Shown in pieces: positions 25,685-64,000 of a stretch of 64,000 nt of DNA. Numbering within the stretch: position 1 is the first letter of the stretch; each line of letters begins with the position of its first letter. Source of the DNA: Tubulanus polymorphus (Eukaryota; Nemertea; Palaeonemertea; Tubulaniformes; Tubulanidae); the NCBI RefSeq assembly GCF_964204645.1, contig NC_134025.1, forward strand, positions 8,315,001 through 8,379,000. The letters run 5' to 3'. A model generated the notes under the pieces. The model saw nothing but the letters and a program-made list of their open reading frames with translations, made no database searches and had not been told where the DNA came from. The position numbers and the translations under genes were made by a program.

Positions 25685-25882
25685 AAAAACCCAAAGAAGT
25701 CGTAGAAGAGACTGTAGAAGTATCTCTTAAACCCACTGAGGAAACCCCAGTTCAACAAGTGGAAGCTGAGATTACCTTGACACCAGCTCCTGAAAAGAAA
25801 CCTGAAGAACAACCACCAGAGGAAATATCAATCACAGCTGATCTAGTGACATCTGATTTTACTAGTCCAGCTCAGACTGCTC
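25685..25882 (+). CDS. Exon 10: P/E/V/K-rich linker
   Basis: Acceptor ACTTTTAG at 25684, donor CTGCTC|GTAAGT after 25882, phase 1 to 1. About 66 residues rich in P, E, V, K and T (KPKEVVEETVEVSLKPTEE..., TPAPEKKPEEQPPEE). A genuine PEVK-type segment leading into the Ig-rich region. Confidence 0.88.
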
Positions 25883-26046
25883 GTAAGTGACAGTTATTGA
25901 AGAGAAACTGATAATGTATATATACACGCACTTAACTTTGGTGATGGATCTTACCTAATAGCTATATTTTATACTTCCTTTTTAGGAGAACTGATCATTT
26001 TTCTTTCAAGCTTTTAATTGAAAGTTTTCATGTACATATCGTTTAG

Positions 26047-26358
26047 CTGAAGAGGTTGGTGCTGAATTGACTGTTCCATTATTCACAAAACCTTTGGAAG
26101 AGACCACACCAGTTCATGATGGAGACGAGGTTACACTTGAGTGTGTCGTTGAAGGAAAACCAAAACCTAAGGTTAGCTGGTATCATGAAAAAGAAAAGAT
26201 TCAGCCGTCAACTGATTTTGTGATTGACTATGATGACAATAACCTAGCAACATTGACGATAAAGGAAGTTTATCCTGATGATGCTGGAATCTATACAGCT
26301 GAGGCTGTTAATGAAGCAGGCACAACCAAGTCCACTACTGAACTGATTGTTGAAGGAG
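26047..26358 (+). CDS. Exon 11: Ig domain 4
   Basis: Acceptor TCGTTTAG at 26046, donor GGAG|GTTAGT after 26358, phase 1 to 1. One complete I-set Ig in one exon: PLFTKPLEE, VTLECVVEGKPKPKVSWYH and DDAGIYTAEAVNEAG. B-strand Cys and Trp are present; the F-strand Cys is replaced by Ala. Confidence 0.92.
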
Positions 26359-26462
26359 GTTAGTTAATATATATTATATATATATAAGATATTTTCACCC
26401 GCAGGTATCTAGTTTCAAAGCATTTTCATCACATAACATTTCTATCTTATTCATTTATAAAG

Positions 26463-26780
26463 CTATATCTGATGAAGAAGGTATTGCTCCATCCTTCATT
26501 GTCAAACCAAAGTTCCAGACAGCTGATGAGGGATCCACTTGTACATTTGAATGTAAACTTATTGCATCTCCCGAGCCTCATATTACATGGAGTAAAGATG
26601 GTGTGAATGTCACTGGCATTGATTCCAGTCGCATGTCAGTGGATGTAACTGCTGATGTTCACATGTATATTGTGAGATTTACTATAGAAAATGTCAGACC
26701 AGAGGATGAGGGTCCTTACAGAATAACAGTATCAAATACTGAAGGTGATGTGAGCACTTCAGCGTCGCTTACAGTCAATG
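26463..26780 (+). CDS. Exon 12: Ig domain 5
   Basis: Acceptor TTATAAAG at 26462, donor AATG|GTATGT after 26780, phase 1 to 1. Complete I-set Ig: APSFIVKPK, CTFECKLIASPEPHITWSKDG and EDEGPYRITVSN. The F-strand Cys is replaced by Ile. Confidence 0.92.
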
Positions 26781-26862
26781 GTATGTATTTTTGTCTGATA
26801 TTGATAGTGATAGAAAATTAATTGAATCTATTTACACCTTTCTCTTAAAACATAAGTTTCAG

Positions 26863-26899
26863 AAGATGTTGACCAAAGAAAGACTCTCACCAAGAAAGT
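26863..26899 (+). CDS. Exon 13: 37-bp linker exon
   Basis: Acceptor GTTTCAG at 26862, donor AAAGT|GTAAGT after 26899, phase 1 to 2. It encodes about 12 basic residues (EDVDQRKTLTKK), and its phase exactly fits the phase-2 start of exon 14. That fit is the main support. Confidence 0.75.
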
Positions 26900-27713
26900 G
26901 TAAGTTACATGCGTATCATTTTTATGAACTTTTGATGTGGTTATGATTTTTTAAATGTTCCTTCATTTTAAATTGTTCATATTTGGTTGTAACAGTTTTG
27001 CTACTAATTTATGCTGATTTCTATGTTAATGAAAGCATGATTGAATGAAATATCACATTTAAAACCTAACTACTAAGTTGAATCACCACTAACCGCTAAG
27101 CAGACTTTCATCTAACTTCAAAGAATAAGATTAATTTCGGTTTTGCTTTTTCATCCTCAAATTCATTGAATTAATTCAAATTTTGATAAATGAAAGTATG
27201 CATGTCTGTGATTATTGATTCGATTTAAGATTTATATCCAATGCTTTTTAGCTCAGATATATGCCACAAAGAAAAATTGTTTTGCCTGGTTGATAGTACA
27301 ATTTTTTAAACTTTCTTGCTTTTACAGTAGCCAATTCAACAAAAGTCAGCATGAATTATTAGTCTGCGGAGTACTGGAGCAATATCCCTTGCCACCAGTG
27401 CTTGTACAACCTGAGTTCCTTCCACCAGTAATAGTGCAACCCATTATGTGTAATTATGTTGATTGCATGGTTAATTCTCATTTCCCTGCATGCAGAAAAA
27501 CTCGTGTTGGTGTGCAGCATGGTCTTAACCAGATGGACTTCAGGCATATGCTTAAACCATGCAATGACCGATATCAATTTTATTCTATTCAGTAAGTTAG
27601 ATTGCATGCCATATAAAATGTGTTTCCTATGGTGATTGTATTACTGGATCTTTTTTTATGAATGATATATGTTTGATTGTATTTTTGAATGTCATTATCA
27701 CCTGTTTTTACAG
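26900..27713 (+). other. Intron 13 (0.8 kb)
   Basis: Contains a chance open frame (27215-27595) with no domain similarity that I can see and no matching splice phase. Otherwise AT-rich and featureless. Confidence 0.6.
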
Positions 27714-27890
27714 GGAAGAGGAAGCCACCCTTACCATTAAAGGAGAATCCCCTGTATTTGTACAGAAACTGACTGACACATCAGTGATAATTGGAAAAAC
27801 AATAACTTTGACATGCAAGGTGAAAGGCAGTCCTAAACCAACTATAACTATCTTGAAAGATGACCAAGAAGTATCAGGACCACATTATAA
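27714..27890 (+). CDS. Exon 14: first half of Ig domain 6
   Basis: Acceptor TTTTACAG at 27713, donor ATAA|GTAATT after 27890, phase 2 to 2. EEEATLTIKGE, then PVFVQKLTD and ITLTCKVKGSPKPTITILKDD. The core Trp is replaced by Ile (TITIL), unusual for an Ig fold. Confidence 0.87.
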
Positions 27891-27993
27891 GTAATTATCC
27901 CATCAACTTTGAAAGAAATATGCGGGCATTTTTATTTTGAATTAGCATTTATGCATATCTGTACTCTGTATGAAATTTTCTTTAAATTTTCAG

Positions 27994-28409
27994 AATTGAT
28001 TTTACTGATGATGGCATTGTCCAATTGACAATTGATAATTGTACCGGGGATGATGAGGGTGATTATATGATCAAGGCTACAAATGACAAAGGCACAGCTG
28101 AAACAACCTGTGAACTTTTAGTTAACGAACCACCGAAGTTCACTAAGGAATTATGTGACATAACTGTCCTACTTAAAGATACAGGCATTTTCGAATGCAC
28201 ATTATCAGGTGTACCTGAGCCAACTGTAACCTGGTATGTTTCTGGTATAGAAATCAAGGAGACTGAAAAATATCATATCATACATAAGGATGAACTCTGT
28301 TCGTTGGAAATACATGATGTCACACCCGAAGACGGTGATATTGAGTACACCTGTAAGGCAGTCAATACTGCTGGTGAAACGTCAACTACAGCAAAGCTAA
28401 TTACCAAAG
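27994..28409 (+). CDS. Exon 15: end of Ig domain 6 and complete Ig domain 7
   Basis: Acceptor TTTTCAG at 27993, donor AAAG|GTGTGT after 28409, phase 2 to 1. It completes Ig 6 (DDEGDYMIKATNDKG). It then encodes Ig 7 with almost no linker: PPKFTKELCD, GIFECTLSGVPEPTVTWYVSG and IEYTCKAVNTAG, with both cysteines and the Trp. The directly abutting pair suggests a rigid tandem. Confidence 0.92.
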
Positions 28410-30699
28410 GTGTGTTCTAAAATGCTTTTAATTTGGTCAATAAATGCTCTTGAAAGCTTTCTGGAATTTTGACAAATTTGACAAGAACACGTGCACGAAT
28501 TGAGACATGTATTTTTTACAGAGCATCAAATAATCTATTGTTTAGAATGAAAAAATATGTTTAGATGTGCAATTGATCTACACCCGTATATGCATGTGTT
28601 ATACCTTATATTTCTTCCAATCCAGAATAGAAAATATGCAGTGCTTAAGTTCTTCTCAAACAATCATAACCAATTATGATGGTGTTTTTTGCTTCATGGA
28701 AACTTCATGCATTGTTATAATTCTACTTCATAGCTATTCACTATGTGTACCCCTAATTGAAATATAATATTCTCCGTATAGAAAGCTCATCGATTCTTCA
28801 ATCTTGAATAGACAAATCTGGACTGGTCTCTTATATGGTTTAATGCAATCTTTGTAGAATTCGAAGCTTGTCCAATTAATGCTGTGAAGTAAAAAATGGC
28901 AATCTTTCACTGTTGGACGAAAATTCCGTCCATTTACAATCATCCTCATACTATATGATTAGTCCAGTTTTGTAAGCACTATATGTTATGCTGCCTGCTG
29001 TTGCTTAGATCCTTGCATGTTATTATTTATACTGTTCTGACTGTTCTACAAATCAGTTATTCAAAGAAAATGTTTAGTTTATTTGTGCATGCATTGCATT
29101 CTTTTTATTGCGGTTTCTTGGTGACTTTTTTGCGTGAGTACACCAAATGACTAACTGCCAATTATATTATATTCTGGACGTTATATGTTGTTATTTAGTT
29201 ATGTTTGATGAGATCATAGTATCCAGAATCCTTATTTAAGATCAATTTCTGTAATATAAGAAATTTGAGTAAATAGATAGTGTAAATGATAAGTTAACCA
29301 AGCTTCATATCATTTTTAATCTCATGTTCAAAGCTGCCATACTAATTACTTCGCTAATAATCTTGAATTTGAAAGAAGTTTGAGTATTCATAACCAAAGG
29401 TCAACACCTGTACCCTCAACAAAGTGCCATAAAAAAGCCTCTGGAAAGGTTTCATGATATTTATCAAATAATATATTTGATTCTATGATTTGAACAATGC
29501 AGTTCAACTCATTCATAGCATATCAATCTTGAATAATGGACTGGCATATCGGCAGAGATTTATGTATCAAATGTGTCATTTTTCTCTAACCGAAAAATAC
29601 ATGAATTAGTACTTAATGTACTGTTTAATTATAGATTTAATTGCGTGGTTTTCTCAAATCTAAATAATCAAAATTATATATAGCATAATTTGTAAAACAA
29701 TATATATATATATATTGAATGGTTAGGAAATATTTAGTTTATACCCTCCTTGGTACTTACTTCTTACTTACAGCATGGAAATGTGATTTACATTATTTGT
29801 TTTACTTTTTTTGTAAAATGAAATTCGACGCAGCAAATAAAAAAGTGAAAGTCAATTTTACCGAATTTCTTTTTGTTTATTTGTTTTGAGGTAGGATGCG
29901 TGCACGAATAACTTAATTCTTCTACTGTCCAATATCTGAATCCCAACCAATTTTCTGTTCCACCAATCTCCTATCATTAAATATTTCTGAATTTCCCTTA
30001 CCTCTCGCTATCAATATTCTGTGTGATTCTTGAATATGCAATTTACCCTTCGTTTATATCTGGTGGCCGATGAGTCATTATGAAAATTCTCCCACAATTG
30101 CATGTCAGGAATTTTAGGTAATGGTCCCATCAGCCACCATGCAGATTGATTCTACTACTCTACTGTACCGGTTAGTTGTTTAATTCATTAGGCCCAGTTT
30201 AATATATTGGGATCGAGTTAATCGTTTATCATTGGGTAAGAACTTAACCGTACCAAGAGTGATAACAATGGTAACCATAATCCATTGAAATGTCCAAATT
30301 CAATTTCCTTTAATTGCAGTCTACAACCAGCGCGGAACTAGTTGCTAAAGGCCACTGGAAATTTAAAAGTCCCCACCCTCTTTATTGCATGTGTGATTGA
30401 CTAAAGTGAAGGGACTCAAAATCGAAGAGTCCATGACATATTGTATGATACTAATATTCACCCTGACCGCATTTATGACTAACTCACTAACAATCCTTGT
30501 GTGTGTTTGTTCGTTCTTTTAACCATCTCCCATTATTATAAAGGCTCGATTGCAATAATAATCTTGTGTGAATACCAAATCTTAACTGGAATCGTATGAA
30601 ATATATATCCATTAGGTCTAATGAATTCATACTTGACATGTAAACTTTAAATGAATATTCATCGTTCATGTACCAATCTTAGTTGTCCCCTGTTTCCAG
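28410..30699 (+). other. Intron 15 (2.3 kb)
   Basis: AT-rich, with a short (TA)n run near 29699-29715. No supported exon, RNA gene or transposon. Confidence 0.6.
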
Positions 30700-30969
30700 C
30701 TGCACCTAAGATTACTGGACCGGAACAGGTGATTGTTCCCAAAGGCCAAACTATCACTATCGAATGTACGTACACTGGCCATCCGGCACCCACTGTGTCC
30801 TGGACTAAGGCTGGCAAGAAAGTTGTTCCAATGCCAAGAAAAATCAACATTAACAAAGAACCTGGAAAGTGTACATTGGTCATTCTCAATGCAAGTCCTC
30901 AGGATGTTGCTGATTATATCATAACCGTCACAAATGAATATGGAAAAGACAGTTTAACGATCAAAGTCG
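30700..30969 (+). CDS. Exon 16: Ig domain 8
   Basis: Acceptor GTTTCCAG at 30699, donor GTCG|GTAGGT after 30969, phase 1 to 1. Complete I-set Ig of about 90 residues: PKITGPEQVIV, ITIECTYTGHPAPTVSWTKAG and QDVADYIITVTNEYG. The F-strand Cys is replaced by Ile. Confidence 0.92.
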
Positions 30970-33400
30970 GTAGGTTTTCTTCACAGTCCTATTTGCGTTG
31001 GTTACAGTCCATTAAGTATGATAATTGCTGTGATGGTGCAATACGAAAACAATCATAATTGAAGTTCCTGAGAACCATGTAAAAAACGTTTTCTCAGTGT
31101 TGTTTGGTTATAGATTTTATGATGATCAATTCATTTTCAAGGTTAATCCACTTGTATTATATATGTTTATCAAACTATCATAGTTACAATGAACTATGAG
31201 TTGAGAGCTGAAAATGAGATTTGAGGGTTTCCACCTAGATACATATTTTTCTGTTATATTCTAAAGAAAAATCTTATTTCCACTTGCCACTTTAACCAAT
31301 AAATATTCCTGTATCATATAAAGATATGTTGTGGATTTTTGTTCAAAATCCTTCGAGGAATGTTTGATCCATTCCTTCGTCAAGTGTACTTGAAAAGAGT
31401 CCTTAAAAACTTTGACATGTGGCCCCGATATCAATAGCTTGTGTAAATTTACTTCTGGCACTAAGGAATTGCAATAACGTATCCTATCTATCGAGCTGGT
31501 GGGCGATAATCTAAAACCAATAAAAAATCTTTTATGAAAAAAACTTACTTTTTCAAGCAAGGGATTAATTAATTGGACTTGATTACTATGTATATTTCAG
31601 ATAAAGGCCTTTATGTAGAATAATCATAAATAGTTTTCTGAGAATAATATAATGTACCAAAATATTTTAGTGAATATTGATTGATTAGGTATTTACTGGC
31701 CTGATTACCTATGAAATATTATCAGTCGGAAATCGTTGTACTGATAAGCCGTGTACATGGTCGCTTGCCTTCATTCACTATGATCTGGCTGTGACTGTTG
31801 TATTGTCATACACAAGCTGGCTCGCAGTCATAGCAGTAGGCGGGATTGAAGGTCCTTGTGTGTATATTTGATATAACTTTCATACCTGGATATTGGAATC
31901 GAAAATGACATTTGTGGATAGATTCTTTCGCATTTAGGATTGAATTAGTAATGATTTAATCAGACTTTTTCGACACTTCTGCCAGCGAGTTGATTCACTG
32001 GTGGTGTGAAGATAATTTCGCTTTCGATAAAACTCTTCTACTAATTTTATTAGTAGATAAGACGATAAGAATTTTCGCTGCTAGCATTTATCGTCTTTAA
32101 GACTCAAAAGGTGATAGAAATGAGAACATTCAAGAGTTTAGTTCTGGTTCAGATTCGGACTAATACAAAATTAGACCATCTGTCCTTATTTCTATGTCCA
32201 CACGGGAAAGATGACTGGGAAACATCTGGTAAGTTGTATATATAAGATAGCACTTCATTATGAAAATCTTTGAGGCAAATTTAAAACACACAATATACAG
32301 GTATTGTTCTAAGACTTGTATCTTCAAGGGGACAGGCAAGTTACTCTAATACCTTAATGACTATTAACACTAAAATTAACAATTAACTCAAAAAGGGAAT
32401 TATATTACTGGTAACATATATACATGTGTTTTGTATGAAACATCTGAGTTTACTGAAGTTATTTAAGTTCAAATTAAGTAATGCGGCAATAGTAGAATTG
32501 AAGGCAGTGTGTGAAACTGGTGTATATAATCATATATTATCAGTGAGCTGATGTTTAGTATAAAGTTAATGTTTATTTACTCCGCATGAGTGTTATTGGA
32601 CTGACCTAAGGACATTCTTGAACCGTCCTGTTATGTAAATATATACATGAGGAGTATTTGCTTTACCTAAAGGTGACAGATATATATGTTATATTTAAAC
32701 CGACCACCAATCTAGTCATTCTTTCTGATAATTCGTTCCTGTTTCTTAAAATGAAATATATATAGATAGATAATCAAAGGTACAAGTAATTTTACATATC
32801 ATTATGCATAATGTCAAATCGATGATTGAGCAATGATTTCTACTAGTTATGTCTAAAGGCATTTTATATTCATCTCAATTATTTGTAGGATCATTGAATT
32901 AAGAGGTGAAATATATTTTCTATAGCTGTCATTTAATTTTGAATCTCAACAAGCAAATTAATTATATTCAGTTTCAATGAATTCTACATGTCAATACTTA
33001 ATCAGTACAGGTACTGCGTACTTTCTATGTCAACAGGTTGGAATTTCTGCCAAAAGTATCTAGGTGCGCCCTCTTCGAAACATACCACACTTATTCAAGT
33101 ATTGTTGACACTGATTATCTAAGGGTTGTGAGGTTTTTATATGCTTCCTGCAAACACGTAACTTGATATTTAAAAAGTTCCTTCACACAGTGAGAGGTCT
33201 ATGAGTCTCATCGGAATTTAGCCCCCTATCTAATTTAACACAAAATTACCAAATTATCATACTCAAAATTGGTTTTATGACTAGAATGCAGATATAGTCA
33301 ATAGAAGTAATTATATTATATCTTTCTTGTTTTGTGTGTTCATAGTGTTAAGAATGGTTGTCCGAAATACTCTTGTTCAATTGAATTAACCCCATTACAG
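30970..33400 (+). other. Intron 16 (2.4 kb)
   Basis: AT-rich. Short inverted repeats lie at 32036-32056 (TCTACTAAT / ATTAGTAGA) and 32059-32097 (AAGACGATAA / TTATCGTCTT), possibly a decayed MITE. No supported exon. Confidence 0.55.
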
Positions 33401-33787
33401 GTCTCGAAAAACCACCGGAGGAATTGAAAAAGGATGAACCGAAAAAGGATGAACCGAAAAAGGATGAACCCACAGAAGAAAAGGTTGTCTTGAAAACGCC
33501 TACAGGCAAGGCCCCTGAATTTGTCCTTAAAATCAAAACGAAAAATGTCCAGGAGGGTGAAAATGCTGATTTTAATTGTGAAGTTGTTGGTGAGCCAAAG
33601 CCATCCATTAATTGGCAGTACAATGGTAAAAGTCTCAAGGAGGGTGGACATTATACAATGCAAGAAGAAAATAACCTTCATAAGCTTGAGATTTATGACA
33701 TTGTGCCGACAGATGCAGGCAAATACAGCGCTGTGGCCAAAAATGATCACGGAAAAGCAATATGTTCAGCTGACTTGAAAGTTAAAG
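33401..33787 (+). CDS. Exon 17: KKDEP linker plus Ig domain 9
   Basis: Acceptor CATTACAG at 33400, donor AAAG|GTATGT after 33787, phase 1 to 1. The linker holds three perfect copies of KKDEP from a 15-bp repeat (33427-33471), then an I-set Ig: PEFVLKIKTK, ADFNCEVVGEPKPSINWQYNG and DAGKYSAVAKNDHG. The F-strand Cys is replaced by Ala. Confidence 0.92.
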
Positions 33788-34065
33788 GTATGTTAATTGA
33801 ATTATGAACAACACATACGTCGTATTTTGCTATTGAAAAATATCCAGTTTTGTCAATATAAGAATCTAATTTGTGACATCAAATTGAATGGGTGACAGGG
33901 GCTCTTTGAGTTCGAAAACCAAATATTTCTTGTTTCACATGCTACGCAGTTGAAGCGTTTGAAATCTGCTGCTTGAGTTACTGGAATTAATGGGAATTGT
34001 CAAATTATGAATTTTTTAGAGCATGTTGATTGCATGAGCATGTCGCATGTTTTGTTTTTTTCTAG

Positions 34066-34365
34066 AATTGAAACCATCCCCACCACATTTTGTTTTGGAT
34101 ATACAAACAACCGAGTGCAATGTTGGCGATTCGGCTCGACTTTTTGGACGTGTCGTGGGTTCGCCTAGGCCTAAGCTGCTATGGTATAAAGACGGATCTG
34201 AAATAAATCGCAGAGACAATCGTTTCATCATTGAGTATGGAAATGATGAAGAGTGTTCATTGGTGATCGTAGAAATAATCAGCGAAGATGAAGCACTGTA
34301 CACTTGCGAGGCCACCAACGAGTTGGGAGTTGCGACATCAGAAGCTGGCCTGCATGTTGCCCCTG
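34066..34365 (+). CDS. Exon 18: Ig domain 10
   Basis: Acceptor TTTTCTAG at 34065, donor CCTG|GTAATA after 34365, phase 1 to 1. I-set Ig: PPHFVLDIQ, ARLFGRVVGSPRPKLLWYKDG and DEALYTCEATNELG. Here the B-strand Cys is replaced by Gly while the F-strand Cys is kept. Confidence 0.92.
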
Positions 34366-34857
34366 GTAATAATAATTTTATTTAAAATAATCCAAATACA
34401 TTATATGTACTGCCTATGATTGCTGGACGTATGTTTATGTGGCTATTTCATAAGCATATACCCTATCACTCGGCTTGATTATTCCTTAAAATTCTCACGC
34501 AAGATTTTTACATTACATATAACTAACCGTCGAATGGCTTCGTTTTGATTTTAATTGATGTGATCATGGGATTATTTTAATTGCTGTGTTTCGAATGTAT
34601 GTTTGACTCTTTGTACATCGTTCTGTACATAAAATGCATTAATAGAGGCACTATATAGTTAGCTGACTGCACATTTTGTAGAATATTGGTAAGATGTATA
34701 TTTTAGACCACTTACATATGACAGATTCCTGATGTATGCTTGAACAAATCTTTGGTATTTTCAACTCGAGAGCCCACTGGCGGACGGGGGGGGGGGGGGG
34801 TTACAATGTGATGTTGGTTTTGTGCTTGTAATATATTTATGGTTGTCGTGTTCGCAG
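34366..34857 (+). other. Intron 18 (0.5 kb)
   Basis: AT-rich, with a G-homopolymer of about 15 near 34786-34800. No coding signal. Confidence 0.65.
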
Positions 34858-35157
34858 CCAAACCCAAACCCAAGATGGAACCACCGAAGATCGTGAAAAA
34901 ACCCACCAAAGAGGTAGTCAATGAAGGTGACCGTACTCAGTTCTTGTGTCGAGTCACAGGCTCACCCCGACCGACTGTCACTTGGACCAAACGTGGCAAA
35001 AAATTGACCGATGAGAAACTCTATCATATTGAAGATTATGAAGAGACATATGTGTTTGAGATCATCAATTCTAAAATATCAGACTCTGATGTTTACCTAT
35101 GCAAGGCAAAGAATGAGGCTGGAGAAGACAAATGTAGTATTAAATTAGATGTGAAAC
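34858..35157 (+). CDS. Exon 19: Ig domain 11
   Basis: Acceptor GTTCGCAG at 34857, donor AAAC|GTAAGT after 35157, phase 1 to 1. A basic linker (AKPKPKMEPPKIVKKP) is followed by a fully canonical I-set Ig: TQFLCRVTGSPRPTVTWTKRG and SDVYLCKAKNEAG. Both Cys and the Trp are present. Confidence 0.92.
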
Positions 35158-35359
35158 GTAAGTCAGTGCTTAGACTGCAGTGTGATGATGCTTTGAAATC
35201 TTCTGACAAATATCATAATGATTTCCAAACGGATTATCATTATCATTCTGTGCTTAGCAGCGTTCTTTTCCAGCAGCAATGTGCGTGTTTGTGCGAACCG
35301 TCATATCAGTGATCATTTGATAGTAATAAAGGATTTATCACAATTTCTTTATTTCTCAG

Positions 35360-35451
35360 CTGTGAAGAAGGAACCACCAAAGTCACCTCAGATTCTTCGA
35401 CATAAAGAGGAAACACAGCCTCCAAAGTTTACTGAAACTTTAAAGGACACG
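35360..35451 (+). CDS. Exon 20: linker and first strand of Ig domain 12
   Basis: Acceptor ATTTCTCAG at 35359, donor GACACG|GTATAT after 35451, phase 1 to 0. Pro/Lys-rich linker (VKKEPPKSPQILRHKEE) and Ig strand A (PPKFTETLKDT). The phase-0 donor matches exon 21. Confidence 0.87.
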
Positions 35452-35534
35452 GTATATACACATTATTGAAATGTGGAATAGTACTGGGTGCATTTTTGCA
35501 TTATTGAAAATGACATTTATTTTTCATATTACAG

Positions 35535-35611
35535 ACTCTGAAAGAAGGGTCAGGTCTGACGCTGAAAGCTAAAGTCACCGGGGTACCTAGACCAGATGTG
35601 GAATGGATGAA
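35535..35611 (+). CDS. Exon 21: middle of Ig domain 12
   Basis: Acceptor ATTACAG at 35534, donor ATGAA|GTAAAT after 35611, phase 0 to 2. It encodes TLKEGSGLTLKAKVTG and RPDVEWMK. The core Trp is kept; the B-strand Cys is Ala. Confidence 0.87.
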
Positions 35612-36106
35612 GTAAATATTAATATATATCTATACATATCACCTCCAATTTTCTCAGAAATCTTTCATTTTCGTAACTTACTGAACTGTCTTCAGTAATT
35701 CATTCAAATGGATCACTGAACTCATAGTTAAAAATCCACACTTTATATAGACATTGTTGAAAGTTAGAAAGTTAGATTTAGAATTAAAAACAAGGGATAT
35801 ATAGGGATCTATTTATATTGATTATGAGAAAAACCGTTGCTTAAATTGATGTTAATTCATTTAAGAATGATTAGTAATTAGAACAGACAGCTGTGTGACA
35901 TTGATCATAGCAAGATAATCATAGCGTATTTTAGAAACTAGGATTTCTTTCAGAAATTGTAACTTTTATGGGTGACTTTTGTTGTTAATATAATAATTTT
36001 CTTATATACATGTATTTCAATTTGAATGTAGTAGGATATAGTGGGTTTAATATTACAGTTCCCCACGTGTCTGAGAGTGGCTATTTCTGACATTGCTTGT
36101 TTTTAG
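35612..36106 (+). other. Intron 21 (0.5 kb)
   Basis: AT-rich intron inside an Ig domain. Nothing else seen. Confidence 0.65.
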
Positions 36107-36273
36107 GAAAAGTTTGCCTATCAAACCAAGTGATAATATTTCAATGACTTATGAAGAAGATACTTGTTCACTCACTATCGCTAAGACAACTACAAAAGAC
36201 ACTGCCGAATATGTTTGCAAAGCAACAAATCCAGTTGGTGAAGATACATGTACTGCCCGTGTCCTTGTTGAAG
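36107..36273 (+). CDS. Exon 22: end of Ig domain 12
   Basis: Acceptor GTTTTTAG at 36106, donor GAAG|GTAAAT after 36273, phase 2 to 1. KSLPIKPSDNISMTYEE, then KDTAEYVCKATNPVG with the F-strand Cys. This Ig is split over three exons, unlike most of its neighbours. Confidence 0.88.
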
Positions 36274-36378
36274 GTAAATCTCTTGGTCTGTGTAAATGTA
36301 ATTTTCAACTTAATGCTTAAGATCTATTGAGTTGAGTTGAATCACTTAAATTGATTTTTTTTTCTGTTACATTTAAAG

Positions 36379-36417
36379 CAAAACCCAAGGAAGTTCAACC
36401 ACCAGAAGTAGAAGAAG
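36379..36417 (+). CDS. Exon 23: 39-bp linker exon
   Basis: Acceptor ATTTAAAG at 36378, donor AAG|GTATGA after 36417, phase 1 to 1. It adds 13 residues (AKPKEVQPPEVEE), a PEVK-like spacer between Ig 12 and Ig 13 that could be skipped without a frameshift. Confidence 0.75.
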
Positions 36418-36773
36418 GTATGAACATGTTTTATTACCATTTTGCTGTATTCATAATTGTTTTATTATGTGTTAAAAATTGGCATATACACTGATAGTCA
36501 TTATTTGTTTAATGCTGAACTCTATTGACATTCATCGGATGCTCTAGATTTTTCGCTTACCCAGATTGACAGATAATTTAAATGAGTTTGTCTTAAAAGC
36601 ATTCATTATAATGTATTGATTTTTATCACGGAAATTTGATTGTGTCCTGAGTGCAAGTTAGCATTTATCGTTATTCTTAAATTCAACATCTTTCAAGATA
36701 AAGATATCTTCTCACGGTATGATTTATGACAAAAAAAATTCCCAGTTGAAACTGACTTCTTTGTAAAATGCAG
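36418..36773 (+). other. Intron 23 (0.36 kb)
   Basis: AT-rich intron with no other feature. Confidence 0.65.
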
Positions 36774-37082
36774 ATTACAAGGAGGAACCCGAATTCACAA
36801 AGCCACTGAAGAACGATGAGGTGAAGGAGGGGCGCACACTGAGAGTCGATTGTCGGGGAACTGGTGTTCCAATTCCTGAGTTTACATGGTTCAAAAACGA
36901 TGAACCACTCGCGATAGACAACAAACGAGTTAAGGTTGACAGGAAATATAATAAACGTGATGATGAGACTGCCCTGATTTTAACTGTTGAAACTATCACC
37001 ATGGATGATGCTGGTACATACAAGTGTATTGCAAAGAATTCCGAGGGTCAGGCCGATACAGTATCAGTTGTTACTGTTGAAG
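36774..37082 (+). CDS. Exon 24: Ig domain 13
   Basis: Acceptor AAATGCAG at 36773, donor GAAG|GTAGGC after 37082, phase 1 to 1. Canonical I-set Ig: PEFTKPLKN, TLRVDCRGTGVPIPEFTWFKN and DDAGTYKCIAKNSEG. Both Cys and the Trp are present. Confidence 0.92.
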
Positions 37083-37174
37083 GTAGGCAAAGTGATAACA
37101 AAATCACCTTGCACAAGATAAGTATTTTTCATTTGAATATCTCTGTCAACAATCGCTCTATAAATTCTTTTCAG

Positions 37175-37289
37175 CGAAGAAAATACGACCTGATTTTATC
37201 AAAAAACCAGACAATTATGAGATTTATGAAAAAGATTCTGTGACATTTGAAGTCGAGGTCAGTGGTTTTCCGCACCCAACAGTGACATG
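37175..37289 (+). CDS. Exon 25: first half of Ig domain 14
   Basis: Acceptor TTTTCAG at 37174, donor ACATG|GTAAGT after 37289, phase 1 to 2. PDFIKKPDN, VTFEVEVSGFPHPTVT; the intron splits the core Trp codon (TG|G). The B-strand Cys is Val. Confidence 0.9.
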
Positions 37290-37406
37290 GTAAGTTATTA
37301 GGTTCTCTGTATTTTATGTGAAGAAAAGCTGATGTTGATTATCGATGTTACTGTCGTGAAAAATGGTAACCTGTACGATAATAATAATTTTTTTATTCAT
37401 TACTAG

Positions 37407-43427: not shown

Positions 43428-43470
<43 letters not shown>

Positions 43471-53200: not shown

Positions 53201-56200
53201 GCGAGGAAACTATGATCTACCCGATAGAGAAGAGCCGGAACCAGAAATCGAATTAGAGATTGCTCCACCGGACGTAAACGCCGAAGTGAAAATTGAACGA
53301 AAAACCAGTACTTCATCAGCTGAATCCGATAAAGATGCACAGGTCGAAATTACGAAACGGGACATTGATTATCCAGCAATCGATATTGCGTTGCCGGTGA
53401 AGGCCGATAAATCATCATCGTCATCATCCTCATCATCCAGCGACAGCGATGATGACGATAAGGATATCGATGTTAAAGCACGGATTGTCATACCGCAACC
53501 CGATATACAAGCACCTTCGCCTGAGAAAGGCACATCGTCTTCGAGTAGTAATGAATCCGAAGACGAAGACGGCGAGAAAACGAAACGTAACTTTAAATTT
53601 CCATCCGTTTCATTATCCAAACCTCGCTGGGATAGAAATGGTAAATATGAATTACCGACTGGTGACTTGCCCGACGATGAGGTCGAAGTACAGGCTCCGG
53701 TCGTCGAGACTCCTATTGTAAAACAAGAACGAAAATCCAGCACTAGCTCTAGCACAAGTGCTGACAGTTCCGACGATATCAAACCTGAATTTCAATCAAA
53801 CGTTCAAATTCAAAAGCCCGACGTCGACGTTGAACTTCCCGAGGTGCACGCAGAGGTCGAGTTAGACAAACCAAAAATCGAAATGCCGAAGCGGCCTACG
53901 CTCGATATCGGCTTCGAAAATGACGACGTTCAACAAAAGGACAGCAGCGATAGTAGTGGCAGCGAGTCAGATGACGAGGAAGGCAAATTGAAAAGCAAAA
54001 GTAAACTTCACATGCCCCATATCAAAATGCCAAACTTTCGCAGAGATAAATGCTCAAAAGAGCCGAAAAATGACGACGAAGTCGACGACGACAAAAAGAA
54101 AAGAAAATCGAAATTCAAAATGCCTACGTTCAATATAAAGAAACCTCATTTCGGTGGAAAGCGAGGAAAATATGATCTACCCGATAAAGAGCCGGAACCA
54201 GAAATCGAATTAGAGATTGCTCCACCGGACGTAAACGCCGAAGTGAAAATTGAACGAAAAACCAGTACTTCATCAGCTGAATCCGATAAAGATGCACAGC
54301 TCGAAATTACAAAACGGGACATTGATTATCCAGCAATCGATATTGCGTTGCCGGTGAAGGCCGATAAATCATCATCGTCATCATCCTCATCATCCAGCGA
54401 CAGCGATGATGACGATAAGGATATCGATGTTAAAGCACACATTGCCATACCGCAACCCGATATACAAGCACCTTCGCCTGAGAAAGGCACATCGTCTTCG
54501 AGTAGTAATGAATCCGAAGACGAAGACGGCGAGAAAACGAAACGTAACTTTAAATTTCCGTCCGTTTCATTACCCAAACCTCACGGGTATAGAAATGGTA
54601 AATATGAATTACCGACTGGTGACTTGCCCGACGATGAGGTCGAAGTACAGGCTCCGATCGTCGAGCCTCCTATTGTAAAACAAGAACGCAAATCCAGCAC
54701 TAGCTCTAGCACAAGTGCTGACAGTTCCGACGATATCAAACCTGAATTTCAATCAAACGTTCAAATTCAAAAGCCCGACGTCGACATTAAACTTCCCGAA
54801 GTGCACGCAGAGGTCGAGTTAGACAAACCAGAAATCGAAATGCCGAAGCGGCCTACGCTCGATATCGGCTTCGAAAATGACGACGTGCAACAAAAGGACA
54901 GCAGCGATAGTAGTGGCAGCGAGTCAGATGACGAGGTAGGCAAATTGAAGAGAAAAAGTAAACTTCATATGCCCCATATCAAAATGCCAAACTTTCGCAG
55001 AGATAAAGGCTCAAAAGAGCCGAAAGATGACGATGACGACGACGACAAAAAGAAAAGAAAATCGAAATTCAAAATGCCTACGTTCAATATAAAGAAACCT
55101 CATTTCGGTGGAAAGCGAGGAAAATATGATCTACCCGATAGAGAAGTGCCGGAACCAGAAATCGAATTAGAGATTGCTCCACCGGACGTAAACGCCGAAG
55201 TGAAAATTGAACGAAAAACCAGTACTTCATCAGCTGAATCCGATAAAGATACACAGGTCGAAATTACAAAACCCGACATTGATTATCCAGAAATCGATAT
55301 TGCGTTACCAGTGAAGGCCGATAAATCATCATCGTCATCATCCTCATCATCCAGCGACAGCGATGATGACGATAAGGATATCGATGTTAAAGCACGGATT
55401 GTCATACCGCAACCCGATATACAAGCACCTTCGCCTGAGAAAGGCCCATCATCTTCGAGTAGTAGTGAATCCGAGGACGACGACGGCGAGAAAACGAAAC
55501 ATAACTTCAAATTGCCATCCCTTTCATTACCAAAACCTCACTGGAATAGACATGGTAAATATGAATTACCGACTGGTGACTTGCCCGACGATGAGGTCGA
55601 AATACAGGCTCCGGTCGTCGAGACTCCTATTGTAAAACAAGAACGCAAATCCAGCACTAGCTCTAGCACAAGTGCTGACAGTTCCGACGATATCAAACCT
55701 GAATTTCAATCAAACGTTCAAATTCAAAAGCCCGACGTCGACATTAAACTTCCCGAAGTGCACGCAGAGGTCGAGTTAGACAAACCAGAAATCGAAATGC
55801 CGAAGCGGCCTACGCTCGATATCGGCTTCGAAAATGACGACGTTCAACAAAAGGACAGCAGCGATAGTAGTGGCAGCGATTCAGATGTCGAGGAAGGCAA
55901 ATTGAAAAGCAAAAGTAAACTTCACATGCCCCATATCGAAATGCCAAACTTTCGCAGAGATAAAGGCTCAAAAGAGCCGAAAAATGACGACGACGTCGAC
56001 GACGACAAAAAGAAAAGAAAATCGAAATTCAAAATGCCTACGTTCAATATAAAGAAACCTCATTTCGGTGGCAAGCGAGGAAACTATGATCTACCCGATA
56101 GAAAAGAGCCGGAACCAGAAATCGAATTAGAGATTGCTCCACCGGACGTAAACGCCGAAGTGAAAATTGAACGAAAAACCAGTACTTCATCAGCTGAATC

Positions 56201-59200
56201 CGATAAAGATGCACAGGTCGAAATTACGAAACGGGACATTGATTATCCAGCAATCGATATTGCGTTGCCGGTGAAGGCCGATAAATCATCATCGTCATCA
56301 TCCTCATCATCCAGCGACAGCGATGATGACGATAAGGATATCGATGTTAAAGCACGGATTGTCATACCGCAACCCGATATACAAGCACCTTCGCCTGAGA
56401 AAGGCACATCGTCTTCGAGTAGTAATGAATCCGAAGACGAAGACGGCGAGAAAACGAAACGTAACTTTAAATTTCCATCCGTTTCATTATCCAAACCTCG
56501 CTGGGATAGAAATGGTAAATATGAATTACCGACTGGTGACTTGCCCGACGATGAGGTCGAAGTACAGGCTCCGGTCGTCGAGACTCCTATTGTAAAACAA
56601 GAACGAAAATCCAGCACTAGCTCTAGCACAAGTGCTGACAGTTCCGACGATATCAAACCTGAATTTCAATCAAACGTTCAAATTCAAAAGCCCGACGTCG
56701 ACGTTGAACTTCCCGAGGTGCACGCAGAGGTCGAGTTAGACAAACCAAAAATCGAAATGCCGAAGCGGCCTACGCTCGATATCGGCTTCGAAAATGACGA
56801 CGTTCAACAAAAGGACAGCAGCGATAGTAGTGGCAGCGAGTCAGATGACGAGGAAGGCAAATTGAAAAGCAAAAGTAAACTTCACATGCCCCATATCAAA
56901 ATGCCAAACTTTCGCAGAGATAAATGCTCAAAAGAGCCGAAAAATGACGACGAAGTCGACGACGACAAAAAGAAAAGAAAATCGAAATTCAAAATGCCTA
57001 CGTTCAATATAAAGAAACCTCATTTCGGTGGAAAGCGAGGAAAATATGATCTACCCGATAAAGAGCCGGAACCAGAAATCGAATTAGAGATTGCTCCACC
57101 GGACGTAAACGCCGAAGTGAAAATTGAACGAAAAACCAGTACTTCATCAGCTGAATCCGATAAAGATGCACAGCTCGAAATTACAAAACGGGACATTGAT
57201 TATCCAGCAATCGATATTGCGTTGCCGGTGAAGGCCGATAAATCATCATCGTCATCATCCTCATCATCCAGCGACAGCGATGATGACGATAAGGATATCG
57301 ATGTTAAAGCACACATTGCCATACCGCAACCCGATATACAAGCACCTTCGCCTGAGAAAGGCACATCGTCTTCGAGTAGTAATGAATCCGAAGACGAAGA
57401 CGGCGAGAAAACGAAACGTAACTTTAAATTTCCGTCCGTTTCATTACCCAAACCTCACGGGTATAGAAATGGTAAATATGAATTACCGACTGGTGACTTG
57501 CCCGACGATGAGGTCGAAGTACAGGCTCCGATCGTCGAGCCTCCTATTGTAAAACAAGAACGCAAATCCAGCACTAGCTCTAGCACAAGTGCTGACAGTT
57601 CCGACGATATCAAACCTGAATTTCAATCAAACGTTCAAATTCAAAAGCCCGACGTCGACATTAAACTTCCCGAAGTGCACGCAGAGGTCGAGTTAGACAA
57701 ACCAGAAATCGAAATGCCGAAGCGGCCTACGCTCGATATCGGCTTCGAAAATGACGACGTGCAACAAAAGGACAGCAGCGATAGTAGTGGCAGCGAGTCA
57801 GATGACGAGGTAGGCAAATTGAAGAGAAAAAGTAAACTTCATATGCCCCATATCAAAATGCCAAACTTTCGCAGAGATAAAGGCTCAAAAGAGCCGAAAG
57901 ATGACGATGACGACGACGACAAAAAGAAAAGAAAATCGAAATTCAAAATGCCTACGTTCAATATAAAGAAACCTCATTTCGGTGGAAAGCGAGGAAAATA
58001 TGATCTACCCGATAGAGAAGTGCCGGAACCAGAAATCGAATTAGAGATTGCTCCACCGGACGTAAACGCCGAAGTGAAAATTGAACGAAAAACCAGTACT
58101 TCATCAGCTGAATCCGATAAAGATACACAGGTCGAAATTACAAAACCCGACATTGATTATCCAGAAATCGATATTGCGTTACCCGTGAAGGCCGATAAAA
58201 CATCATCGTCATCATCCTCATCATCCAGCGACAGCGATGATGACGATAAGGATATCGATGTTAAAGCACACATTGCCATACCGCAACCCGATATACAAGC
58301 ACCTTCACTTGAAAAAGGCCCATCGTCTTCGAGTAGTAGTGAATCCGAGGACGAAGACCGCGAGAAAACGAAACGTAACTTCAAATTGCCATCCGTTTCA
58401 TTACCCAAACCTCACTGGAATAGACATGGTAAATATGAATTACCGACTGGTGACTTGCCCGACGATGAGGTCGAAATACAGGCTCCGGTCGTCGAGACTC
58501 CTATTGTAAAACAAGAACGCAAATCCAGCACTAGCTCTAGCACAAGTGCTGACAGTTCCGACGATATCAAACCTGAATTTCAATCAAACGTTCAAATTCA
58601 AAAGCCCGACGTCAACGTTGAACTTCCCGAGGTGCACGCAGAGGTCGAGTTAGACAAACCAAAAATCGAAATGCCGAAGCGGCCTACGCTCGATATCGGC
58701 TTCGAAAATGACGACGTTCAACAAAAGGACAGCAGCGATAGTAGTGGCAGCGAGTCAGATGACGAGGAAGGCAAATTGAAAAGCAAAAGTAAACTTCACA
58801 TGCCCCATATCAAAATGCCAAACCTTCGCAGAGATAAATGCTCAAAAGAGCCGAAAAATGACGACGACGTCGACGACGACAAAAAGAAAAGAAAATCGAA
58901 ATTCAAAATGCCTACGTTCAATATAAAGAAACCTCATTTCGGAGGCAAGCGAGGAAAATATGATCTACCCGATAGAGAAGTGCCGGAACCAGAAATCGAA
59001 TTAGAGATTGCTCCACCGGACGTAAACGCCGAAGTGAAGATTAAACGAAAAACCAGTACTTCATCAGCTGAATCCGATAAAGATACACAGGTCGAAATAA
59101 CAAAACCCGACTTTGATTATCCAGAAATCGATATTGCGTTACCCGTGAAGGCCGATAAATCATCATCGTCATCATCCAGCGACAGCGATGATGACGATAA

Positions 59201-62200
59201 GGATATCGATGTTAAAGCACGGATTGTCATACCGCAACCCGATATACAGGCACCTTCGCCTGAGAAAGGCCCATCGTCTTCGGGTAGTAGTGAATCCGAG
59301 GACGAAGACGGCGAGAAAACGAAACGTAACGTCAAATTGCCATCCGTTTCATTACCAAAACCTCACTGGAATAGACATGATAAATATGAATTACCGACTG
59401 GTGACTTGCCCGACGATGAGGTCGAAATACAGGCTCCGGTCGTCGAGCCTCCAATTGTAAAACAAGAACGCAAATCCAGCACTAGCTCTAGCACAAGTGC
59501 TGACAGTTCCGACGATATCAAACCTGAATTTCAATCAAACGTTCAAATTCAAAAGCCCGACGTCGACGTTGAACTTCCCGAGGTGCACGCAGAGGTCGAG
59601 TTAGACAAACCAAAAATCGAAATGCCGAAGCGTCCTACGCTCGATATCGGCTTCGACAATAACGACGTTCAACAAAAGGACAGCAGCGATAGTAGTGGCA
59701 GCGAGTCAGATGACGAGGAAGGCAAATTGAAAAGCAAAAGTAAACTTCATATGCCCCATATCAAAATGCCAAACTTTCGCAGAGATAAAGGCTCAAAAGA
59801 GCCGAAAAATGACGACGACGTCGACGACGACAAAAAGAAAAGAAAATCGAAATTCAAAATGCCTACGTTCAATATAAAGAAACCTCATTTCGGTGGCAAG
59901 CGAGGAAAATATGATCTACCCGATAGAGAGGAGCCGGAACCAGAAATCGAATTAGAGATTGCTCCACCGGACGTAAACGCCGAAGTGAAAATTGAACGAA
60001 AAACCAGTACTTCATCAGCTGAATCCGATAAAGATACACAGGTCGAAATTACAAAACCCGACATTGATTATCCAGAAATCGATATTGCGTATCCAGTGAA
60101 GGTCGATAAATCATCATCGTCATCATCCTCATCATCCAGCGACAGCGATGATGACGATAAGGATATCGATGTTAAAGCACGGATTGTCATACCGCAACCC
60201 GATATACAAGCACTTTCGCCTGAGAAAGGCCCATCGTCTTCGAGTAGTAGTGAATCCGAGGACGAAGACGGCGAGAAAACGAAACGTAACTTCAAATTGC
60301 CATCCGTTTCATTACCCAAACCTCACTGGAATAGACATGGTAAATATGAATTACCGACTGGTGACTTGCCCGACGATAAGGTCGAAATACAGGCTACGGT
60401 CGTCGAGACTCCTATTGTAGAACAAGAACGAAAATCCAGCACTAGCTCTAGCACAAGTGCTGACAGTTCCGACGATATCAAACCTGAATTTCAATCAAAC
60501 GTTCAAATTCAAAAGCCCGACGTCGACGTTGAACTTCCCGAGGTGCACGCAGAGGTCGAGTTAGACAAACCAAAAATCGAAATGCCGAAGCGGCCTACGC
60601 TCGATATCGGCTTCGACAATAACGACGTTCAACAAAAGGACAGCAGCGATAGTAGTGGCAGCGAGTCAGATGACGAGGAAGGTAAATTGAAAAGCAAAAG
60701 TAAACTTCATATGCCCCATATCAAAATGCCAAACTTTCGCAGAGATAAAGGCTCAAAAGAGCCGAAAAATGACGACGACGTCGACGACGACAAAAAGAAA
60801 AGAAAATCGAAATTCAAAATGCCTACGTTCAATATAAAGAAACCTCATTTCGGTGGCAAGCGAGGAAAATATGATCTACCCGATAGAGAAGTGCCGGAAC
60901 CAGAAATCGAATTAGAGATGGCTCCACAAGACGTAAACGCCGAAGTGAAAATTGAACGAAAAACCAGTACTTCATCAGCTGAATCCGATAAAGATACACA
61001 GGTCGAAATTACAAAACCCGACTTTGATTATCCAGAAATCGATATTGCGTTACCCGTGAAGGCCGATAAATCATCATCGTCATCATCCAGCGACAGCGAT
61101 GATGACGATAAGGATATCGATGTTAAGGCACGGATTATCATACCGCAACCCGATATACAAGCACCTTCGGCTGAGAAAGGCCCATCATCTTCGAGTAGTA
61201 GTGAATCCGAGGACGAAGACGGCGAGAAAACGAAACGTAACTTCAAATTGCCATCCGTTTCATCACCAAAACCTCACTGGAATAGACATGATAAATATGA
61301 ATTACCGACTGGTGACTTGCCCGACGATGAGGTCGAAATACAGGCTCCGGTCGTCGAGCCTCCAATTGTAAAACAAGAACGCAAATCCAGCACTAGCTCT
61401 AGCACAAGTGCTGACAGTTCCGACGATATCAAACCTGAATTTCAATCAAACGTTCAAATTCAAAAGCCCGACGTCGACGTTGAACTTCCCGAGGTGCACG
61501 CAGAGGTCGAGTTAGACAAACCAAAAATCGAAATGCCGAAGCGTCCTACGCTCGATATCGGCTTCGACAATAACGACGTTCAACAAAAGGACAGCAGCGA
61601 TAGTAGTGGCAGCGAGTCAGATGACGAGGAAGGCAAATTGAAAAGCAAAAGTAAACTTCATATGCCCCATATCAAAATGCCAAACTTTCGCAGAGATAAA
61701 GGCTCAAAAGAGCCGAAAAATGACGACGACGTCGACGACGACAAAAAGAAAAGAAAATCGAAATTCAAAATGCCTACGTTCAATATAAAGAAACCTCATT
61801 TCGGTGGCAAGCGAGGAAAATATGATCTACCCGATAGAGAGGAGCCGGAACCAGAAATCGAATTAGAGATTGCTCCACCGGACGTAAACGCCGAAGTGAA
61901 AATTGAACGAAAAACCAGTACTTCATCAGCTGAATCCGATAAAGATACACAGGTCGAAATTACAAAACCCGACATTGATTATCCAGAAATCGATATTGCG
62001 TATCCAGTGAAGGTCGATAAATCATCATCGTCATCATCCTCATCATCCAGCGACAGCGATGATGACGATAAGGATATCGATGTTAAAGCACGGATTGTCA
62101 TACCGCAACCCGATATACAAGCACTTTCGCCTGAGAAAGGCCCATCGTCTTCGAGTAGTAGTGAATCCGAGGACGAAGACGGCGAGAAAACGAAACGTAA

Positions 62201-64000
62201 CTTCAAATTGCCATCCGTTTCATTACCCAAACCTCACTGGAATAGACATGGTAAATATGAATTACCGACTGGTGACTTGCCCGACGATAAGGTCGAAATA
62301 CAGGCTACGGTCGTCGAGACTCCTATTGTAGAACAAGAACGAAAATCCAGCACTAGCTCTAGCACAAGTGCTGACAGTTCCGACGATATCAAACCTGAAT
62401 TTCAATCAAACGTTCAAATTCAAAAGCCCGACGTCGACGTTGAACTTCCCGAGGTGCACGCAGAGGTCGAGTTAGACAAACCAAAAATCGAAATGCCGAA
62501 GCGGCCTACGCTCGATATCGGCTTCGGAAATGACGACGTTCAACAAAAGGACAGTAGCGATAGTAGTGGCAGCGATTCAGATGACGAGGAAGGCAAATTG
62601 AAGAGAAAAAGTAAACTTCATATGCCCCATATCAAAATGCCAAACCTTCGCAGAGATAAAGGCTCAAAAGAGCCGAAAAATGACGACGACGTCGACGACG
62701 ACAAAAAGAAAAGAAAATCGAAATTCAAAATGCCTACGTTCAATATAAAGAAACCTCATTTCGGTGGCAAGCGAGGAAAATATGATCTACCCGATAGAGA
62801 AGTGCCGGAACCAGAAATCGAATTAGAGATGGCTCCACAAGACGTAAACGCCGAAGTGAAAATTGAACGAAAAACCAGTACTTCATCAGCTGAATCCGAT
62901 AAAGATACACAGGTCGAAATTACAAAACCCGACATTGATTATCCAGAAATCGATATTGCGTATCCAGTGAAGGTCGATAAATCATCATCGTCATCATCCT
63001 CATCATCCAGCGACAGCGATGATGACGATAAGGATATCGATGTTAAAGCACGGATTGTCATACCGCAACCCGATATACAAGCACTTTCGCCTGAGAAAGG
63101 CCCATCGTCTTCGAGTAGTAGTGAATCCGAGGACGAAGACGGCGAGAAAACGAAACGTAACTTCAAATTGCCATCCGTTTCATCACCAAAACCTCACTGG
63201 AATAGACATGATAAATATGAATTACCGACTGGTGACTTGCCCGACGATGAGGTCGAAATACAGGCTCCGGTCGTCGAGCCTCCAATTGTAAAACAAGAAC
63301 GCAAATCCAGCACTAGCTCTAGCACAAGTTCTGACAGTTCCGACGATATCAAACCTGAATTTCAATCAAACGTTCAAATTCAAAAGCCCGACGTCGACGT
63401 TGAACTTCCCGAGGTGCACGCAGAGGTCGAGTTAGACAAACCAAAAATCGAAATGCCGAAGCGGCCTACGCTCGATATCGGCTTCGAAAATGACGACGTT
63501 CAGCAAAAGGACAGCAGCGATAGTAGTGGCAGCGATTCAGATGACGAGGAAGGCAAATTGAAAAGCAAAAGTAAACTTCACATGCCCCATATCAAAATGC
63601 CAAACTTTCGCAGAGATAAAGGCTCAACAGAGCCGAAAAATCTCGACGACGACAAAAAGAAAAGAAAATCGAAATTCAAAATGCCTACGTTCAATATAAA
63701 GAAACCTCATTTCGGTGGCAAGCGAGGAAAATATGATCTACCCGATAGAGAGGAGCCGGAACCAGAAATCGAATTAGAGATTGCTCCACCGGACGTAAAC
63801 GCCGAAGTGAAAATTGAACGAAAAACCAGTACTTCATCAGCTGAATCCGATAAAGATACACAGGTCGAAATTACAAAACCCGACATTGATTATCCAGAAA
63901 TCGATATTGCGTTACCAGTGAAGGTCGATAAATCATCATCGTCATCATCGTCCTCATCCAGCGACAGCGACGATGACGATAAGGATATCGATGTTAAAGC
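47278..64000 (+). CDS. Exon 35: giant AHNAK-like repeat exon (3' partial)
   Basis: Acceptor TTTAACTAG at 47277; phase 1 start gives EVRMHCTNDKGDDSDSG. The frame is open to the window end, at least 5570 codons. After about 120 Ser/Lys/Asp-rich residues come 17 full tandem units and the start of an 18th. Each unit, in order: KPDIDYPEIDIALPVK, a poly-Ser then SDSDDDDKD tract, ARIVIPQPDIQAPSPEKG, SSSESEDEDGEK, FKLPSVSLPKPHW, ELPTGDLPDDEVEIQAP, SSTSADSSD, KPDVDVELPEVHAEVELDKP, IEMPKRPTLDIGF, LHMPHIKMPNFRRDKG, a poly-Asp linker, KKKRKSKFKMPTFNIKKPHF, and EPEIELEIAPPDVNAEVKI. The KMPxF, KLPxV and alternating P-D-V-D/E-V-E-L strands are the hallmark of AHNAK/periaxin repeats. A single giant repeat exon is also how vertebrate AHNAK is built. 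AHNAK acts at the submembrane cytoskeleton; the role here is inferred. Confidence 0.85.
52380..58127 (+). repeat. Three-unit higher-order duplication (2 x 2874 bp)
   Basis: Units from about 52380-55253 and 55254-58127 share private variants: AAACATAAC, CGCTGGGATAGAAATGG, CACGGGTATAGAAATGG, AGATAAATGCTC, GACGAGGTAGGC. Reading them side by side I noticed one difference (GATAGAGAAGAG versus GATAGAAAAGAG). A very recent block duplication. Confidence 0.88.
59116..62938 (+). repeat. Two-unit higher-order duplication (1911-bp offset)
   Basis: The unit from 60067 and the one from 61978 share TATCCAGTGAAGG, GCACTTTCGCC, GACGATAAGG and GTAGAACAAG. The preceding units at 59116 and 61027 also match over most of their length. 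The unit at 47647 matches the one at 49558 at the same 1911-bp offset. Confidence 0.82.

Follow-up and report, generated by a model that had tools for sequence, protein, structure and literature searches.

The closest described systems for the gene studied here are the chordate titins (connectins) and the vertebrate AHNAK and AHNAK2 proteins. In PMC12198301, the connectins of vertebrates, urochordates and cephalochordates are described as holding I-band and A-band regions together, whereas in arthropods and nematodes these regions are split. PMC8833689 locates AHNAK and AHNAK2 of vertebrates at the costameres between Z-discs and sarcolemma, and PMC4720518 describes an internal promoter of vertebrate titin that yields Cronos. 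The present analysis concerns a stretch of 64,000 nucleotides from the nemertean Tubulanus polymorphus (bases 8315001-8379000 of contig NC_134025.1, in an assembly of 267.8 Mb and 77 contigs), hereafter the window, together with the wider locus of 264 kb (8255001-8519000), which contains no N. Positions of up to five digits refer to the window and those of seven digits to the contig. The window lies inside a gene of about 205 kb, carried by a single strand, which reads as titin/connectin and in which one giant exon, exon 35, codes for an array of AHNAK-like units. We consider it likely that this gene is a titin with an AHNAK-like exon that follows the Ig block of the I-band and precedes the super-repeats of the A-band, where the array would act as a spring or spacer.

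Exon 35 and its junctions

No exon of the gene model is larger than exon 35 (8362278-8383829). It is a single exon of 21,552 nt with about 7,184 stop-free codons, and it leaves the window to end at the equivalent of position 68829; the earlier note on the window had given it at least 16.7 kb. It codes, in order, for 117 residues, 19 unit starts, a degenerate partial unit, about 910 unique residues and an end of about 85 residues. The 18 spacings between unit starts measure 314-320 residues, for a unit of about 319 residues. The window holds 17 complete units and the beginning of an 18th, the last unit start lying beyond it, so that the count of about 18 units made earlier becomes 19 starts when the whole exon is taken. 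The features concerned, in window coordinates, are the following:

41900-42166 (+): exon 32, Ig domain, donor AAG/GTAGGA, phase 1 (hidden Markov model (HMM), splice models)
42970-46473 (+): exon 33, 1168 residues, acidic, predicted disordered (open reading frame, charge-hydropathy, gene finder)
46888-46914 (+): exon 34, PEVK-like mini-exon of 27 nt, GKKVKEEPA (splice models, gene finder)
47278-64000 (+): exon 35, part within the window, running on to 8383829 (open reading frame, gene finder)
47628-63869 (+): 17 complete AHNAK-like units of 314-320 residues (repeat spacing, AHNAK similarity)

The C-terminal residues of exon 35 (about 85) matched the Pfam I-set family with 25.2 bits for a cut-off of 23.7, and their best PDB match was titin 5jdd (E 4.7e-11). 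A phase-1 donor closes the exon, and the one after it (8384060-8384326), also in phase 1, codes for an Ig (I-set E 2.7e-17). Since AHNAK-like units and an Ig occupy the same open reading frame, the linkage of the array to an Ig is independent of splicing. This terminal Ig, together with the continuation of titin on the far side, is the strongest reason for accepting the proposal of the earlier note that Ig domains, PEVK-like springs and the AHNAK-like array belong to one titin-type gene. A chance match of phases or a pseudo-exon was ruled out, as the Ig and the units share one open reading frame and titin resumes downstream.

The introns 32/33, 33/34 and 34/35 are bounded by GT-AG (donors after 42166, 46473 and 46914; acceptors before 42970, 46888 and 47278), and all six of their ends are in phase 1, in agreement with the phase match first read from the window. 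Scoring relied on donor and acceptor models trained on 195 introns elsewhere in the locus, 185 of which are phase 1, the region under test being excluded from training. Junctions 32/33 (donor at the 26th and acceptor at the 43rd percentile of locus introns) and 33/34 (68th and 47th) were ordinary. A gene finder that uses these splice models returned the same exons, 42970-46473, 46888-46914 and 47278-68829, followed by 8384060-8384326, in frame and under both penalties tried.

These junctions bear on the possibility that the locus contains two adjoining genes, the first an I-band titin with exon 32 as its last exon and the second carrying the AHNAK-like exon and the A-band half, which we regard as very unlikely. 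In protostomes the two parts are divided between I-connectin and projectin, PMC12198301 describing I- and A-band proteins as separate in arthropods and nematodes, and the continuity of the present gene is inferred. However, both ends of intron 32 are ordinary phase-1 sites, and a single strand carries the I-band part and the A-band part without interruption, which is also the layout of chordate connectins. Intron 32 (803 nt) is also devoid of AATAAA and ATTAAA, a weak point given that about one is expected by chance. Even with two genes, Ig domains and AHNAK-like units would still share one protein.

Several observations weigh against the favored reading of the gene, in which the inclusion of exon 35 in full-length transcripts is a prediction. 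The acceptor of junction 34/35 is weak (13th percentile; donor 47th), as is the donor by which exon 35 is left (TGG/GTATTC, 7th percentile; next acceptor 49th). ATTAAA motifs are found after exon 33 (8361715) and after exon 35 (8383903), and together with the weak sites around exon 35 they make shorter isoforms possible. The training set for the codon model of the gene finder included exon 33 and the end of exon 35 and, as stops within exons are forbidden to the gene finder, the frame was tested at the junction codons only. Finally, the Pfam score of the exon 35 Ig barely exceeds the cut-off, and the locus-wide Ig HMM called neither this terminal domain nor any other Ig in exons 33-35.

Two other arrangements of the transcripts must be weighed against these sites. 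An internal promoter in 42167-47286, giving a shorter titin that starts at exon 33 or 35 and includes the A-band half, is possible but somewhat unlikely; in that case the array may be left out of the full-length I-band titin. Cronos, as described in PMC4720518, is a precedent for such an internal start. An ATG at 47286, three codons into exon 35, and the weak 34/35 acceptor are compatible with this arrangement, but a compatible phase-1 acceptor precedes this ATG and is used by the gene finder. Moreover, an internal start would not conflict with the array belonging to a titin protein. The second arrangement, in which exon 33 or 35 serves as an alternative last exon and produces a short I-band isoform with an AHNAK-like C-terminus, perhaps reaching the membrane skeleton, is unlikely. 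Novex-3 is an alternative last exon of titin and thereby a precedent for a giant alternative exon; to our knowledge, neither novex-3 nor Cronos carries AHNAK-like sequence. The weak donor of exon 35, where read-through meets a stop within 86 nt and the ATTAAA at 8383903 follows, is in favor of such an end, as is the ATTAAA at 8361715 for exon 33. Nevertheless, the Ig of exon 35 is cut at a phase-1 donor, as for internal titin exons (185 of the 195 introns being phase 1), and two ATTAAA in four introns of 1.8 kb in total are unsurprising at the locus rate of 0.62 per kb. Exon 35 is considered below as an internal exon of one titin gene.

The surrounding titin gene

Same-strand Ig matches span at least 8286661 to 8491810 (assembly search, best 150 of 681 candidates), and the minus strand of the 264-kb locus gave no Ig or FN3 match at the thresholds used. 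In total, 137 Ig and 120 FN3 domains were matched by HMM after overlaps had been resolved and split domains joined, the Ig of exon 35 coming in addition. Twenty-six Ig lie upstream of the window, 3 in positions 1-25684 and 15 in 25685-42166; the 18 or more Ig domains announced earlier are therefore present in the whole window (18), whereas the segment 25685-42166 to which the earlier note applied holds 15. Exon 35 and the kinase are separated by 75 Ig and 118 FN3, and 18 Ig and 2 FN3 follow the kinase. On the 3' side of exon 35, five Ig and two FN3 precede 33 copies of Ig-Ig-FN3-FN3-FN3, a regular super-repeat of A-band type found within 8389049-8459867. After them come Ig-Ig, sixteen FN3, Ig-Ig-FN3, the kinase and M-band-type Igs, and the last Ig is followed by a TAA stop in the gene model. 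The gene continues in this way for about 108 kb beyond the end of exon 35.

The single A-band FN3 triplet that was compared with the PDB had cardiac thick-filament titin as best match (8g4l, E 8.5e-206), and the one window Ig compared (piece 33385-33804) matched titin 3b43 best (E 4.5e-52). Two PEVK-like segments have a P+E+V+K content of 43% and 49%; by charge-hydropathy one is clearly disordered and one borderline. The kinase was detected as three Pfam Pkinase pieces after Ig-Ig-FN3 (locus piece L015, 2942-3682). The fragment compared (one piece) resembles MLCK4 and twitchin more closely than it does the titin kinase of vertebrates, and the kinase exons retain the HLDLK and DFG motifs, suggesting that the titin kinase may be active here. 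The reading frame is continuous through the gene model and no stop is created at any junction. The predicted protein has 39,452 residues when exons of at least 200 nt are taken and 43,791 with all exons; some small exons of the model may be spurious, and others may never occur in the same transcript. Human titin has about 36,000 residues, and the predicted titin would be longer if all its exons were used together.

Judged from its sequence, the locus codes for a titin/connectin and unites the I-band and A-band parts in one gene. With chordate titin it shares Ig arrays, PEVK-like segments, A-band Ig/FN3 super-repeats and an FN3 run, all in one gene, as well as the Ig-Ig-FN3-kinase order, the M-band-type Igs and the stop after the last Ig. 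It differs by the 21.6-kb AHNAK-like exon, by a predicted length of about 39,500-43,800 residues and by its A-band, in which 33 copies of Ig-Ig-FN3x3 are followed by Ig-Ig and 16 FN3. The A-band of vertebrate titin has an 11-domain super-repeat, unlike this pattern. Upstream of exon 33, the window contains the following features:

3-8375 (+): PEVK-like exon, array of 45-residue repeats ending in an Ig (8109-8375, Pfam I-set) (open reading frame, repeats, HMM)
8313935-8323438 of the contig (+): full open reading frame of this first PEVK-like exon, beginning upstream of the window
13558-13827 (+): Ig, one of three in 1-25684, the others being 8109-8375 and 8732-9098 (HMM)
15714-20192 (+): PEVK-like exon, array of 45-residue repeats, borderline disordered (repeats, charge-hydropathy, gene model)
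20325-24449 (+): acidic exon with longer repeats, predicted coding (open reading frame, repeats, gene model)
25685-25882 (+): PEVK-like exon, both ends in phase 1 (gene finder)
26047-42166 (+): exon block with 15 Ig, distal I-band, including the Ig 33514-33783 within 33385-33804 (HMM, gene finder)

Three further observations were made along the gene. An open frame at 15030-15458 (+) has a Cys/His pattern that recalls a BED finger by eye, with no Pfam match, and is perhaps an intronic transposon relic. Long antisense frames at 15847-20226 (-), 15953-17842 (-) and 17843-20023 (-) mirror the array of 45-residue repeats; most likely they are not genes but arise from the codon usage of the repeats. 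Just 3' of the gene (locus piece L018, about 4936-7624), two frames resemble, by eye, a Penelope-type reverse transcriptase.

Likeness of the array to AHNAK

The first 760 residues of exon 35 were searched against about 5.8 billion proteins, 1,155 of which were scored, and 13 matches were obtained at E<=0.001 (best E 4.3e-42). Ten of the 13 are named AHNAK or AHNAK2, two are uncharacterised fish proteins and one is from Daphnia. Identity was 23-26% for the 12 vertebrate matches and 45%, over 7% of the query, for that of Daphnia. Twelve of the 13 fit a PDZ HMM built from one match and its relatives among them, and none lists an I-set domain in precomputed Pfam annotation. In these protein searches, targets were kept within 0.55-1.75 times the query length and the top shared-word candidates were scored, so that giant titins of related species could hardly appear. 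Under the same limits, no homologue was found for exon 33 (E<=0.01, 7,989 candidates scored) or for the C-terminus of exon 35 with its Ig (E<=0.001, 2,610 candidates).

One unit aligned with five AHNAK-type proteins (P0001, P0002, P0004, P0005 and P0008) with scores of 192-221, to be compared with 119 for the best of 30 shuffles of the unit against each protein and 148 for the best of 30 each when shuffling was confined to blocks of 10 residues. When acidic and serine runs were masked, the scores were 143-183 against at most 84 for shuffles. Disordered segments from elsewhere in this gene remained close to the shuffle level, with z from -1.2 to 2.4 for four of them against two AHNAKs (8 comparisons) and from -0.8 to 1.5 for six against the unit. 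A compositional artefact is ruled out by the shuffles, the masking and these within-gene controls: at the sequence level, the resemblance to AHNAK is specific and not compositional. Pfam matches of the array such as Phage_tail_S were judged to be low-complexity chance.

The array shares with vertebrate AHNAK and AHNAK2 charged proline-rich repeats that carry the motifs [ILV]x[ILV]xxP and (K)FKMPxF, and AHNAK repeats lie, like the array, in one very long exon. It differs from them by its unit of about 319 residues with SSSSSDSDDDD tracts, by its position between titin Ig domains and by the PDZ, which was not found here: no AHNAK-type PDZ was detected at E<=10 by HMM in stop-to-stop open reading frames of at least 20 residues on both strands of the 264 kb, although a domain divided among several short exons could escape this search. 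Among the open-licence papers listed by full-text searches, none described such a combination of titin with AHNAK-like sequence in its title or the beginning of its abstract.

Such a likeness could also have arisen by convergence, a charged proline-rich spring repeat of titin having acquired [ILV]x[ILV]xxP and FKMPxF motifs. This is quite possible, though less likely than not, and it is compatible with a titin that carries the array as a spring or spacer. The modest identity to the 12 vertebrate matches, the missing AHNAK-type PDZ in the locus and the ease with which simple motifs can recur are in agreement with it. By contrast, the similarity is specific, other disordered segments being near shuffle level, and it survives masking; a giant single repeat exon is moreover a feature of AHNAK genes too, which counts against convergence. 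Descent of the array from an AHNAK-family gene is plausible.

The Daphnia match (P0008, Daphnia sinensis, 3688 residues) has an AHNAK-type PDZ at residues 153-224 (E 1.6e-31) in addition to AHNAK-like repeats, which suggests that the AHNAK family predates the vertebrates. Its repeats share with the array FKMP motifs and SDSDDDDE tracts (local score of 221 to the unit). It differs by the PDZ and a hydrophobic N-terminal segment, and no Pfam domain, hence no Ig, is listed for it.

Proposed role and origin of the array

The array lies after the I-band Igs and before five Igs and the first FN3. Its composition (39% charged residues, 27% Ser+Asp) is of disorder type by charge-hydropathy, and exon 35 would measure about 2.6 micrometres if fully extended. 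AlphaFold gave no confident structure (mean predicted local distance difference test score, pLDDT, of 45). When included, the array would constitute an additional extensible entropic spring or spacer, rich in Ser and Asp and open to phosphorylation, which would act in series with the I-band close to where it meets the A-band, and its stiffness could be tuned by kinases. Basic FKMPxF-type patches and hydrophobic-proline motifs would offer possible weak binding sites. CK2-like sites are as dense in the array as in the first PEVK-like segment (4.4 per 100 residues in both), and phosphorylation is thus no special mark of the array. A long, disordered and charged I-band insert flanked by Ig domains is also what the N2B-unique and PEVK segments of vertebrate titin are; the array differs from these springs by its position near the I/A junction, its AHNAK-like motif and its size of about 7,100 residues in one exon.

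This assignment as a spring is tempered by the tests themselves. Charge-hydropathy is a rough criterion, one true Ig domain having been called weakly disordered by it, and the AlphaFold model had 14 near-identical sequences as input. The array could equally be conceived as a scaffold, and by analogy with AHNAK it is possible that it scaffolds partners as well. A single protein of about 43,000 residues, with a complete AHNAK repeat region built in at the I/A junction, which would unite a titin ruler and spring with an AHNAK-type scaffold and bring membrane or calcium-channel partners to the sarcomere, is a doubtful extension of this idea. The earlier note proposed that the fusion could tie a sarcomeric filament to the membrane scaffold. 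None of the measurements speaks for this tie: an AHNAK-type PDZ was not found, the array lies within the protein and not at an end, with the I-band Igs on one side and the A-band on the other, and the role at the costamere is that of vertebrate AHNAKs. A membrane link is possible.

As to its origin, the array most likely would derive either from the capture of an AHNAK-family repeat exon or from convergence on its motif, followed by tandem amplification. The 18 complete units have a mean DNA identity of 96.5% and a ratio of nonsynonymous to synonymous differences (pN/pS) of 0.54 over 153 pairs, from which the protein sequence looks constrained while the copies homogenise. Units 6-8 and 9-11 (52389-58136) differ by one base in 2,874, and this three-unit block is either a very recent duplication or an assembly artefact.

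Titin is usually viewed as a protein of Ig, FN3 and PEVK segments with a few unique inserts, and the titin gene described here contains a stretch of about 7,000 residues with likeness to AHNAK, an unrelated giant. If expressed, the array would be a new sort of spring or scaffold beside the thick filament, would constitute a natural test of the tolerance of titin for very large inserts and would bear on the origin of AHNAK repeats.

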